Notes under the pieces: model-generated
Database searches by the model: none
What the model saw: only the letters and a program-made list of their open reading frames with translations
Told to the model about the DNA's origin: nothing
Position numbers and translations under genes: made by a program
Shown: in pieces, positions 4,376-30,618 of the stretch
Layout: every line of letters begins with the position of its first letter
How positions within the stretch are numbered: position 1 is the stretch's first letter
Source: Candidatus Poribacteria bacterium
GTDB taxonomy: Bacteria > Poribacteria > WGA-4E > WGA-3G
Assembly: GCA_022822275.1 (NCBI GenBank)
Contig: JAJEBZ010000035.1
Coordinates: forward strand, 1-33,397
Reading direction: 5' to 3'
DNA: 33,397 nucleotides

Positions 4376-4955
4376 GTATTTATCCTCCTATAGGATTGCT
4401 TATTCTGGCATATACAATTGTTTCTTGACAGTTCCAAAGGAGAAGACGTTGGCAGGAAAATAAGAACGTTGTTGTCAACTGTCCCCTTTGAGCGCGCTGG
4501 TTTTCATAATCTTATAGTTTCAGAGTACATCTGTGCTATAATGAAAACCAGTCCTGTCACTCCATTACAGTAGCATGGCTACGCGCTGATAGTGCTACTA
4601 TACTGTCGGCGCGCCCGAACTTAATGAAGATCAATATATTAATTCGGTAATTTTCGGCCTGGGAAGCCCCGTCCCTACGATAATGTTATGTATACGAATA
4701 CCAATTTATTTTTTTAATCTTCATCATGTCGAGTCAGTAGCCCAGGTGTCATACACGCATACCATGCATTTTTGACACCTTGTCATAACTATATTACATC
4801 TATTTTTTTTTTTGCAAGTCTTTTTTATACAAAAATATACTTTTTGTATTTTGCTATTGAATTTATAGTGAGTAAAGTCTCAGAATTCAAAGTGAATCGG
4901 TAATTGAAGTGGAAAGAATAAAAAGTTAAGTATGTTTTATTCTTTCACTGTTTTT
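4376..4955. other. Gene-free stretch with imperfect inverted repeats
   Basis: No convincing gene is present. ATGAAGAT at 4624-4631 and ATCTTCAT at 4717-4724 are the clearest part of a longer imperfect inverted repeat around a GC-rich core at 4660-4680, possibly a decayed short mobile element. AGGTGTCA (4744-4751) and TGACACCT (4773-4780) form a second perfect 8-bp inverted repeat. A T-rich tract follows at about 4801-4830. No promoter with both boxes was found for the minus-strand gene starting at 4375. Confidence 0.35.
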
Positions 4956-5307
4956 ACTATAGTTTGGACAATTTTCATCTCGTCCAAGTTGAGTATTCAA
5001 TGGAACGTCTATTTTTTATGGGTTTCACATATTCGTGAAACTGGCGAAAATGCTGCACTCCAGCGGAGTGCTATGTTTATAGAAAACGGTATCCCCACAT
5101 TCTTGCACTCCAGCGGAGTGCTATGTGCGTCACCTACATACCGCTCCGCTGGAGCGGAGGTGTCGGTTTGCAATGTGGCTATAAACATATTGCTCCGCTG
5201 GAGCAAAGAGGGTTTCCGTTATGTTCGTTGGTCTTGATTTGGTAACATAGACGGTAAACCAATTTCTTATCGACTCATGTTTGGAAAAAAATTGTCCAAA
5301 CTATAGT
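4956..5307. mobile_element. MITE family A, copy 1 (352 bp)
   Basis: The element is bounded by CTATAGTTTGGACA at the left and its reverse complement TGTCCAAACTATAG at the right. It has no coding capacity of its own. Its interior carries four hairpins: GCACTCC-AGC-GGAGTGC at 5055-5071 and 5105-5121, CCGCTCC-GCT-GGAGCGG at 5141-5157 and GCTCC-GCT-GGAGC at 5192-5204, several followed or preceded by TATGTTTATAG or its complement. Copy 2 at 14734-15033 is nearly identical but lacks one hairpin unit of about 50 bp. A non-autonomous element of the IS630/Tc1 type (TA target) is possible but the target duplication is not clear. Confidence 0.85.
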
Positions 5308-10892: not shown

Positions 10893-10920
10893 GTGATTGT
10901 TACAACGGGATTAACAATCA
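10893..10920 (-). terminator. Hairpin spanning the methyltransferase stop codon
   Basis: TGATTGTTA (10893-10901) and TAACAATCA (10912-10920) form a perfect 9-bp stem that includes the TAA stop at 10911-10913. Only a weak T-content follows on the minus strand, so it may be a 3' stabilising hairpin or a poor terminator. Confidence 0.35.
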
Positions 10921-13913
10921 TACCAACTTGGAAAAGCAATTCCCTTCTTCTTAAGCCCCACCAACTCCGCATCAAGATCACATGTAGACTGCTTCCCACC
11001 GTGGATACTCGGCTCAGCACAGAGCATCTCGCGCAGAGTCTGCATAGACTTTAGCACGTTATCGCTTGTAATGCCTAACACCTCAGTTAGCAGAGAACGA
11101 TCTAATTCCGCGCGCACAGGATCATGACCACATTCGTTGACAGGCAGCATCCGCTTATATTTCAACTGATCAAAGATTGCAGCAGCGTTTGCTAATGCCT
11201 CATCGGAGAGTTCACGGACATCTAACGTTGGCATACTTCTTAATGTTCCAAGCCGTAAAATACCGCGTCCTGACTGTTGTTTGCTGCTATGTGCCCAGTG
11301 ACAAAATAATCCTAAAACTGAATTACACCAAAGTGTCCAAGGGATTTCATGACGTGGATTTTCAAAAGCCACATTTGTTATTAAGGTTGGACCGATAGTA
11401 GGCTGTTCAGTGAAAAGAGCTATTACTGAGTTAGCAGTAAATCTTGATAGCAGGTTATAGTGGGTTCTGCTGTTTCGATCTACTCGCTTCTGTACTGCGA
11501 TTTCAGCTTTCGGAAGTGGTATCGCCCGTGAATCTGGGAGGACTAACATTGACCTTTGGACTTCACTCTGAGCATTCCACAAACAGGGATAGCCGTCATC
11601 GTTGGGTTGATACCCCTCCTCTTTACGAAACACGCCTCTTACCTCAGCAAATCCTAAAGTAGCAATATCTCCGACTTGGCAAATTGGAATCTCAGTGACC
11701 TTTTCTTGTAATTTCTGCAGCGGTAACTCTAATTTGCCTTCTTTTAATCGTCGGGCAGATTGGAGAAGTGCCATGGATTTGACGCGCGTTGCAATCCACC
11801 CTTCACCTTTAGGTAACGGACAATCAAGCATGTGCCCAAGCAATTCCTTCCCAACTTTGACCACGTCACCGCCACTGGGTGCATCTTCTAATTGGTATGT
11901 ACTTTTACTGCGGATGATTTGGTTTGTAATCTCAAAAGCCTCAAGTTGACTCTTTGGACGTTGGTTTAGACACACGAACTTACCACGTCCCGTGTTATCG
12001 CCTTTTCCTTTTGTTCCCACGATGATGCACTCCGCCATGTTTGTATCAGCAGAGAACGCACAATCAGTACCCTTTGCTTTTGCAATAGTAATCACAACTA
12101 TATCGTGAAATCTTGTTGCCCACATATCACGTACTTTCTGCGAAGTTGGTGAAACAAGAACTGTAGCGGGTAATATAAACCCCATTCTTCCGTTACGTTT
12201 AAGCATTATGTCTGCCAGTTCTATAAAGTATGAACTGAGTCCTGCTTGTCCATCAGCAACATACGTAGCTTTTTCATTAAGTATTTTTTGCATTATTTTC
12301 GTGTATTCTTTAGGTCGGTCGGTGCCTTGGAAAGGCGATTTAGCACCTGATGTGCTTGCAGGATCAGAACCGGGCCGCGTAAAGGGAGGATTCTGAATAA
12401 CAACATCAAATGTTTCGTATTGTTGTTTCATATTTTCGCGAGGAACTTTGCTCAAAAATTCCTGCTGGAGACTAACTATTCTGTTTTCTTCACCTCCAAT
12501 CTGTTCGCCCTCCGTATCAAATAACGACCTACCAAGCAATTCCAATGAACCGACAGCGTAAATATCATTGTCTACTTTACCATAGGGGGCAGTGAGAATA
12601 CGCGTCCCACCCAGTTTCATGTCAGCATAGGTACTCGCAAGTGCAGCAGCCGTAAGGTGTGTAGCATTCGGCATCACATCTACTCCTGCAAGATTCTCCT
12701 CTAACATTTTTTGATGGATATCTCTACCATTTCCACCCGCTTGTTCATACAGAGATAAGATACGTTGATAGACACCGTTGAGCAGCGCGCCTGTGCCGCA
12801 AGCAAAATCAGCAACTTTCGGGAGTTTGCCTTTCGGCAGTTCAGGCATCACAAGCGTAGAGAGCAGCACCGCACTTTCGGGTAGGGTATAGTTTGCCTTG
12901 ACGTATTTTCTGTCAGTGATAAGTTTCTGGAACACGATCCCCGCGAGCTCATGTATCTGCGCGATACCGGTATCAACAAGGTCTTTGGCAGCCTCACACA
13001 AAAGCTTTAAGATATGTTTGACAAGTCTATCGTCAGTCGCGAGTGCCTCAACAAGATTCCGAGCATCTTCAAAGATGGGACGGTAGTTAACCTTGAGTAT
13101 TGTGTTCCAGTCGTCAATGACATCGGCATAATCAATTGTCGGCAGGAGTTGACGGAGAGAACGGACAGATTCCATCTCTGCTTTACCAGCGAGGGAACTC
13201 TGAAAAACGAACGCATCGGTGATAATCAACGCTGCCATACGGAGCGTTTGAATGTTGGGGGATCGCGATTCGGAGATCGCGCCTACAGAAGAATCTTCCT
13301 CAGAAAAGACCTCTTGGTGCAGAATTGTCTCAATTTTCTTGCCGATAGCAGGGTGTTCAACGATGGCATCTTCAAGTAGATAAGCCGCTTTGTTGACGCT
13401 TTTCTCCATCTCTTCAGCTGCCGCTTCAAGGTGAGAGTTTGGCATTGCACCCACGCGGAGCGCGTTTGCTATGTCCGCAACTGTACCTGTTGCCCATCCG
13501 TTTTCAGGGAAATGTGCGACGGTGTCACCGACGGTATTGACAAGTTTGTATTGGAGGTCATCCGCAGAACGTAGTTGCGGATTAACATCCCTTCCTGGCA
13601 TTGTCTTAAATCGGTCAGGATATAGGATTGCCATGACGTTATTGAGCGTTTTTCCAACGACGTGGTACTCCGTTTCAAGTTCGAGAACAAGTCTATCCTC
13701 TGCTTGTGTAATAAGATTCTTGGCGTTAGTCGTGGTAGCAAACTTTGCTTCAATTCCGACAGGTTCTCTACCGCGTTCAACAACGATAGCGTCAAGTTCG
13801 CTGTTGCCTTTAATGAAGGCGTTGACTTCCGTTTCGAGTTCCCATCCGTGGCGCATGTGGCGTAAGATGTTCACCAGTTCGTTTGTGATTGTGGTTTCGC
13901 GTCTTTTTGGCAT
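10911..13913 (-). CDS. Fused PD-(D/E)xK nuclease-like / N6-adenine DNA methyltransferase
   Basis: The 1000-residue protein carries an N-terminal segment with a restriction-endonuclease-like pattern (Glu39-Leu-Asp41 followed by VGIEAKF, Glu55-x-Lys57). The HsdM/type IIG methyltransferase core follows, with SAM-binding motif I DFACGTGALLNG (369-380) and catalytic motif IV NPPF (508-511). A helical region lies at 170-340, before the core, and the C-terminal third (about 700-960) resembles a target-recognition region. One polypeptide thus appears to hold cleavage, modification and specificity functions, as in type IIG/Eco57I-like enzymes; there is no separate hsdS or hsdR gene. The ATG has a GGAGAAAG site. 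An intergenic palindromic repeat lies in frame at residues 210-218. BREX PglX is an alternative, but no brx genes are near. Confidence 0.85.
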   Translation of the reverse strand: MPKRRETTITNELVNILRHMRHGWELETEVNAFIKGNSELDAIVVERGREPVGIEAKFATTTNAKNLITQAEDRLVLELETEYHVVGKTLNNVMAILYPDRFKTMPGRDVNPQLRSADDLQYKLVNTVGDTVAHFPENGWATGTVADIANALRVGAMPNSHLEAAAEEMEKSVNKAAYLLEDAIVEHPAIGKKIETILHQEVFSEEDSSVGAISESRSPNIQTLRMAALIITDAFVFQSSLAGKAEMESVRSLRQLLPTIDYADVIDDWNTILKVNYRPIFEDARNLVEALATDDRLVKHILKLLCEAAKDLVDTGIAQIHELAGIVFQKLITDRKYVKANYTLPESAVLLSTLVMPELPKGKLPKVADFACGTGALLNGVYQRILSLYEQAGGNGRDIHQKMLEENLAGVDVMPNATHLTAAALASTYADMKLGGTRILTAPYGKVDNDIYAVGSLELLGRSLFDTEGEQIGGEENRIVSLQQEFLSKVPRENMKQQYETFDVVIQNPPFTRPGSDPASTSGAKSPFQGTDRPKEYTKIMQKILNEKATYVADGQAGLSSYFIELADIMLKRNGRMGFILPATVLVSPTSQKVRDMWATRFHDIVVITIAKAKGTDCAFSADTNMAECIIVGTKGKGDNTGRGKFVCLNQRPKSQLEAFEITNQIIRSKSTYQLEDAPSGGDVVKVGKELLGHMLDCPLPKGEGWIATRVKSMALLQSARRLKEGKLELPLQKLQEKVTEIPICQVGDIATLGFAEVRGVFRKEEGYQPNDDGYPCLWNAQSEVQRSMLVLPDSRAIPLPKAEIAVQKRVDRNSRTHYNLLSRFTANSVIALFTEQPTIGPTLITNVAFENPRHEIPWTLWCNSVLGLFCHWAHSSKQQSGRGILRLGTLRSMPTLDVRELSDEALANAAAIFDQLKYKRMLPVNECGHDPVRAELDRSLLTEVLGITSDNVLKSMQTLREMLCAEPSIHGGKQSTCDLDAELVGLKKKGIAFPSWYDC
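13262..13286 (-). repeat. Palindromic intergenic repeat inserted in frame in the methyltransferase gene
   Basis: These 25 bp match the intergenic repeat at 30516-30540 at 23 of 25 positions and also the copy at 21138-21166. Core shared by all: CGATCTCCGAATCGCGA. Here it lies inside an open coding frame and is translated as VGAISESRS (residues 210-218), in a low-complexity loop between two helical regions. Confidence 0.8.
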
Positions 13914-14714: not shown

Positions 14715-14733
14715 AAAAAATGTGTTAAATTCT

Positions 14734-15033
14734 ACTATAGTTTGGACAGTTTTCATCTCGTCCAAGTTGAGTATTCAACGGAACGTCTATTTTCTATGGC
14801 GTTTGCATATTCGTGAAACTGGAGAAAATGCTGCACTCCAGCGGAGTGCTATGTGCGGCACCTACATACCGCTCCGCTGGAGCGGAGGTGTCGGTTGACA
14901 ATGTGACTATAAACATATTGCTCCGCTGGAGCAAAGAGGGTTTCCGTTATGTTCGTTGTGTCTTGATTTGGTAACATAGACGGTAAACCAATTTCTTATC
15001 AACTCATGTTTGGAAAAAAATGTCCAAACTATA
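14734..15033. mobile_element. MITE family A, copy 2 (300 bp)
   Basis: Left end CTATAGTTTGGACA and right end TGTCCAAACTATA match copy 1 at 4956-5307, and the interiors are nearly identical. This copy has a single GCACTCC-AGC-GGAGTGC hairpin where copy 1 has two. AAATTC occurs close to both ends outside the element but is offset, so a target duplication is uncertain. The right end lies inside the open frame of the aminotransferase gene. Confidence 0.85.
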
Positions 15034-21137: not shown

Positions 21138-21207
21138 GTAGGTCGCGATTCGGAGATCGCTCCTACCGATGGACTGCTTATGGTAGGAGGGAACTCCGAT
21201 TCCCGAC
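21138..21207. repeat. Pair of palindromic intergenic repeats (types a and b)
   Basis: Type a, GTAGGTCGCGATTCGGAG onward (21138-21166), and type b, GTAGGAGGGAACTCCGATTC onward (21183-21207), stand side by side. The same two units occur at 30516-30540 and 30555-30579. Type a also occurs inside the methyltransferase gene at 13262-13286. Together with the MITE at 21246-21375 they fill the 328-bp gap after the sulfatase. Confidence 0.75.
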
Positions 21208-30480: not shown

Positions 30481-30618
30481 TTATAGTGAATTAGAAAATT
30501 AAGTTTACACCTTCTGTAGGAGCGATCTCCGAATCGCGACAAAAAGCAGTGATAGTCGGGAATCGGAGTTCCCTCCTACAATTGGAAAATGTAAAAATAA
30601 TTATGGATTCCACTATAA
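30481..30618. mobile_element. Possible MITE family E carrying repeats a and b (138 bp)
   Basis: TTATAGTG (30481-30488) and CACTATAA (30611-30618) are perfect inverted ends. The inverted similarity continues imperfectly to TTTACA (21 of 29 positions). Inside are the palindromic units a (30516-30540) and b (30555-30579), which also occur at 21138-21207. It fills the gap between two convergent genes and may serve as their common terminator region. Confidence 0.5.

Follow-up and report, generated by a model that had tools for sequence, protein, structure and literature searches.

Most REPs are, by definition, extragenic. The presence of REPs within genes is already known (PMC3733652), and in the recB genes of X. 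campestris and X. oryzae they occur at about the same site (PMC3733652). The GTAG-type REPs found in genes by Di Nocera et al. (2013, PMC3733652) carry a GTAG tag, GW extra bases, a short stem and a 3-bp tail, form head-to-head pairs, are mostly intergenic with some units translated in frame, and decorate proteins that include DNA-processing enzymes; the Poribacteria repeat described here is alike in all of these features. In Rickettsia, palindromic elements (RPEs) are located between genes and are also translated in conserved proteins, and a decorated protein can stay active, as in the case of gmk (Ogata et al. 2000, reviewed in PMC2229807).

Because REPs inside genes and the Rickettsia elements were described before, the Poribacteria capture is of a known kind, that of REP-decorated proteins and Rickettsia palindromic elements. 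It shares with the RPEs the occurrence of palindromic repeats both in intergenic regions and in frame within proteins. However, RPEs are 105–146 bp long and belong to small intracellular genomes (PMC2229807), whereas the Poribacteria copies are single 24–29 bp units in sponge-associated genomes of 4–6 Mb; given this length and the GTAG type, assignment to the RPE families proper was rejected. Like REPINs (PMC3116915), the repeat forms two inverted REP units that recur as an intergenic entity, but in Poribacteria the pairs are enclosed in TA-ended MITEs, and the copy within the gene consists of one unit; no RAYT gene was found beside the pairs. Compared with the cases in PMC3733652, Poribacteria adds a series of alleles of one loop across genera, comprising gain, tandem copy and in-frame hairpin deletions, and in another enzyme one loop is shared by several palindrome families. 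A term search of PMC3733652 gave no mention of Poribacteria, and we found no report of palindromes in Poribacteria proteins among open-licence papers.

We analyzed a 33,397-nucleotide stretch of Poribacteria DNA (the window; Table 1), in which the segment of interest is very probably one GTAG-type REP unit that was captured in frame by a surface loop of a DNA methyltransferase, tolerated there and followed by a later history of alleles. Positions 13291–13263 (minus), on the gene strand, read CTTCTGTAGGCGCGATCTCCGAATCGCGA, and the intergenic copy at 30511–30539 reads CTTCTGTAGGAGCGATCTCCGAATCGCGA; the two match at 28 of 29 bases. The in-gene copy is one unit of 24–29 bp with a 6-bp stem (CGCGAT/ATCGCG) and the loop CTCCGA, and its translation, VGAISESR, constitutes residues 210–217 of a 1000-codon open frame. 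The earlier note had given the correct coordinates, a match of 23 of 25 bases and a peptide within an uninterrupted 1000-codon frame, and the true match proved slightly longer, at 29 bp. The unit belongs to a dispersed repeat family: exact matches to the core GCGATYTCCGAATCGC number 41 in the window's genome, nearly all intergenic, compared with 0 for a reversed control pattern.

Table 1. Positions of the methyltransferase gene, the captured unit and the related repeats in the window
Feature	Position	Strand	Remark
Methyltransferase gene, 1000 aa	10911..13913	-	Pfam Eco57I (PF07669)
Captured REP unit GTAGGCGCGATCTCCGAATCGCGA	13263..13286	-	in frame VGAISESR
Five extra bases CTTCT upstream of the GTAG tag, common to the intergenic copy	13287..13291	-	
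Hypervariable loop codons, methyltransferase residues 203-221, between HQEV and QTLRM	13251..13307	-	
Intergenic REP unit, first arm of inverted pair	30516..30540	+	
Second, inverted arm GTCGGGAATCGGAGTTCCCTCCTAC, stem different but paired	30555..30579	+	
MITE-like element enclosing the pair; ends TATAGTGAATT... / ...GGATTCCACTATA	30482..30617	.	plan common to ~20 genome copies
Intergenic REP unit, second MITE-like class; third window copy	21142..21166	-	
Partner REP arm of the 21142-21166 copy	21183..21207	+	

The pattern TAGGNGCGATYTCCGAATCGC with up to three mismatches had 3 matches in the window, compared with 0.02 expected from shuffles. A chance convergence of the loop sequence with the intergenic repeat might be entertained for a single loop of eight codons, but this expectation, the 29-bp alignment and the recurrence of the same DNA unit in frame in several unrelated proteins speak against it, and we regard it as refuted, since the bases match across genes that are unrelated.

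The longer unit was present in 60 of the 98 relatives searched. Its layout is a GTAG tag followed by GA, a 5-bp stem (GCGAT/ATCGC), a 6-base loop (CTCCGA) and the tail GAC. A hairpin scan showed the unpaired GTAG tag ending a short palindrome, within the ranges given in PMC3733652 (stem 5–13 bp, loop 2–20), and the copies were many, dispersed, mainly intergenic and often in inverted pairs, as in GTAG-type REPs. Most copies in the window's genome are pairs of the form GTAGGAGCGATCTCCGAATCGCGAC ... GTCGGGAATCGGAGTTCCCTCCTAC within TA-ended MITEs; the stem of the second arm differs (GGGAA/TTCCC), yet it is still paired. Aligned pairs fell into two MITE-like classes, one with TA-starting ends (TATAGTAAATT.../...AATCCACTATA) and the other with the ends TGCTTAGTCAA.../...TTGACAAAGCACTA. 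In two g1 genomes, in-gene copies accounted for about 1 in 45 (G000) and about 1 in 75 (G010), the rest being intergenic, according to genome-wide coding fractions derived from pattern searches and 400-kb samples. An inverted pair forms a single long hairpin that folds much better than shuffled sequences do (z about –6). RNA folding of the single in-gene unit was no better than that of shuffles, and a regulatory mRNA hairpin formed by this unit was therefore rejected as unsupported. Separately, the window contains long near-identical repeats (93–97%) at 4952–5230 and 14730–14958 with CGCTCCGCTGGAGCG hairpin units of another palindrome family.

The methyltransferase is weakly similar to BrxX/PglX as well as to type IIG enzymes, and its named homologues are all from Poribacteria MAGs. 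The loop containing the REP is flanked by strictly conserved HQEV and QTLRMAALIITDAF, and conservation in these flanks is among the highest in the domain. A full-length AlphaFold model was discarded (mean pLDDT 41). In a model of residues 115–345, confident helices enclose the REP segment, which is itself a loop of low confidence; this 231-residue fragment model (mean pLDDT 67; of five models, one was good) served for loop placement only. The placement in a protein loop that had been proposed is thus borne out by a hypervariable stretch between conserved flanks as well as by the model. The enzyme decorated with VGAISESR may be expressed and folded.

To follow the unit through the phylum, we aligned 70 homologous proteins, of which 45 were close and 25 distant (<60% identity). 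All 25 distant homologues have a 4-residue turn between HQE and QTLRM. All 45 close homologues have a loop: 12 contain the REP peptide, 3 contain remnants, and 30 are REP-free (e.g. EEKPN, EEEKLN), with loop lengths of 15–34, 16–17 and 15–16, respectively. The 12 REP alleles come from three genera, namely from the window's genome, G010, G006, G013, five genomes that form part of a second genus, and G020 of another genus, which contributes three gene copies. The unit is duplicated in tandem (VGAISESRLPSAVGAISESRLPN) in G006 and G013. The remnant in G015 has lost 12 bp, joining GTAG to AATC (L038), and those in both G001 copies (L032/L131) have lost 15 bp; these deletions are in frame and inside the hairpin, and both flanks are kept.

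The gene that holds the repeat is thus open, and some of its homologues have no such insert, including proteins at 73–85% identity. As a point against a capture, about 16 variable residues are replaced by 21 in the REP alleles, which is not a plain addition of the unit, so that the methyltransferase gene offers no clean empty site. The 12 REP alleles, the remnants and the 30 REP-free loops indicate that the insert is a polymorphic allele of the family. The earlier note had taken an insert unique to this protein as a sign of recent entry, a prediction contradicted by the 11 other alleles among the 45, spread over three genera, that have the same peptide at the same place, and by the decay intermediates. 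The note had further held that finding these residues in homologues from repeat-free genomes would count against its reading; this was nearly the case, since G040 and G051 have only two copies genome-wide, one of which is the methyltransferase loop. The window's genome is a fragmented MAG (320 contigs), and an assembly artefact might be suspected on this ground, but the same allele structure is seen in independently assembled MAGs, including the near-complete G010 and G020, which refutes the suspicion. The approximately 45 alleles of one loop document almost every stage in the life of an in-frame palindrome (absent, single, tandem, hairpin-deleted and worn), and this series makes the tempo and tolerance of captures measurable.

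The N- and C-terminal halves of the methyltransferase gave different trees, which indicates that the gene recombines; because of this disagreement, we dropped the whole-gene tree for counting gains. As a separate observation, a difference between the N- and C-terminal phylogenies (window 10911–13913) is expected if target-recognition parts were exchanged. On the N-terminal tree, the REP state requires at least six changes. Between clades, 44–53% of third positions differed over 201 flanking codons, compared with 0–2 of 8 inside the REP. As the REP third positions are far more alike than the flanks, the units would be younger than the gene split, having entered separately, been re-seeded or been exchanged in patches.

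This near absence of synonymous change weighs against the possibility that the REP made the long loop once, at the origin of the subfamily, and that the REP-free loops (EEKPN, EEEKLN) are its fully decayed descendants, a scenario that also needs many separate losses. A single origin would agree with the 4-residue turn of the distant homologues, with the peptide in the three alleles of G020, which are basal in the N-terminal tree, and with the length of 16 that the known 15-bp deletions yield, as in REP-free loops; we consider it unlikely overall. Since the deepest branches of that tree (G020) carry worn REP copies, an ancestral entry followed by many losses is possible. Within genus g1, the alleles have the private base GTAGGC and the flank CGACTCCCC in common, and a single entry within this genus is therefore likely. 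The same shared features, together with the discordant trees and the REP-free allele L055 within a REP-bearing clade, could also indicate that REP alleles spread mainly by short-patch recombination between lineages and not by repeated capture from intergenic copies. However, the g1 alleles differ from those of g2 and g4 in the private base and flanking codons, and we give this mode of spread a substantial but less than even chance.

Under the capture that we favor, one of the GTAG-type units that are dispersed through these Poribacteria would have entered the loop-bearing methyltransferase subfamily, with decay following insertion. Afterwards, the unit would have undergone tandem duplication (G006, G013), in-frame loss of 12–15 bp within the hairpin (G001, G015) and wear through substitutions (G050, G020), as well as either recombination between lineages or renewed seeding from genomic copies. 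It may survive, presumably as a neutral passenger, because no residue of the loop is conserved and the peptide read in this frame is short and soluble. Possible routes of entry are REP-type single-strand transposition, loss of the remainder of a MITE, or patch recombination. For this repeat we found neither an empty-site/filled-site pair with target duplication nor a dedicated transposase, and a search of the window's genome (MAG 96% complete) for a REP-associated tyrosine transposase (RAYT) gene near the repeats returned one Y1_Tnp gene, located beside other repeats and not flanked by the REP studied. The proposal that such repeats move and land in genes agrees, as to the landing, with the in-frame copies in genes, whereas mobility would be deduced from the distribution of copies only.

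Further in-frame copies, which the earlier note had suggested looking for, were found in several other proteins. They are common in genomes other than G000 and G010, and domain scans identified real host genes for CoaBC, an altronate/galactarate-dehydratase-like enzyme, a patatin, a UvrD helicase, an alpha-amylase-family enzyme and a second Eco57I enzyme; the repeat thus recurs within several unrelated proteins of the lineage. In CoaBC, RDSEIAPT lies exactly in the linker between the Pfam domains Flavoprotein (35–203) and DFP (224–406), and g1 orthologues have no insert in the ortholog alignment. The alignment of the dehydratase-like enzyme revealed two loops with repeat peptides that differ per species: one has VGAISESR, QRRVPTTL and GAVRKPHLP, and the second has, among others, SRHAPSCRP and FGVTNPSHSVHTT, the latter in as many as five tandem copies. 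Near query residue 715 of this enzyme, L363 and L364 (G030, G018) have five and three tandem FGVTNPSHSVHTT peptides in one loop. Counting by eye, we obtained about 6 independent captures read as VGAISESR, 6 as RDSEIAPT and 1 as RSDLRIA, and none clearly in the other two open frames; intergenic singles near g2 gene ends that are merely overlapped by ORFs (e.g. L284, L285, L310) were left out.

Two other arrangements were noted. The window's own genome has another GTAG hairpin in frame, GTAGGTGCGGTTTCTAACCGCACC (L439:18395–18415), translated as VGAVSNRT within an ORF of 795 aa; judging by eye from its HD and GGDD motifs, this ORF resembles a Cas10/Csm1 protein. In G010 (1192444–1192627; L100:1440–1630), at least seven tandem 27-bp REP-like units (9 codons, SDLRNPNGR) lie in an open frame of 286 codons, a putative gene.

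Decoration was strongest in G020. In 400-kb samples, recurrent gene-interior 16-mers numbered 67 in G020, a few of them true protein motifs (WD40 SPDG, paralogues), compared with 3 in G010, 1 in G024 and 4 in the window's own genome; G020 has dozens of in-frame palindromes per 400 kb and the three control genomes almost none. It is conceivable, although somewhat unlikely, that in some Poribacteria, above all in the lineage of G020, many palindrome families are being placed in frame into surface loops in an ongoing process, that fixed loops serve as sites of repeated landing or exchange, and that a large part of the proteome is decorated, in which case selfish DNA would generate loop diversity. 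G020 provides a system beyond Rickettsia, in larger genomes, for asking how palindromes enter frames and whether they become useful. Caution is also warranted, as motifs common to unrelated poribacterial proteins can be repeat DNA rather than homology. One G020 gene has seven inserts (e.g. RVSPRKAGNIPS) that are absent or unlike in all 12 orthologues, and the DNA of these inserts holds palindromes such as CCCCGCAAAGCGGGG that are also present between genes. In a TPR/FG-GAP protein of G020 (L386:16449–20000), we observed at least seven palindrome-coded inserts not present in 12 orthologues, namely SPRKAG, SPAKQGK, IFNSGK, GTRSVPTT, IENSGK, VGTLRRAV and TPAKRGQ.
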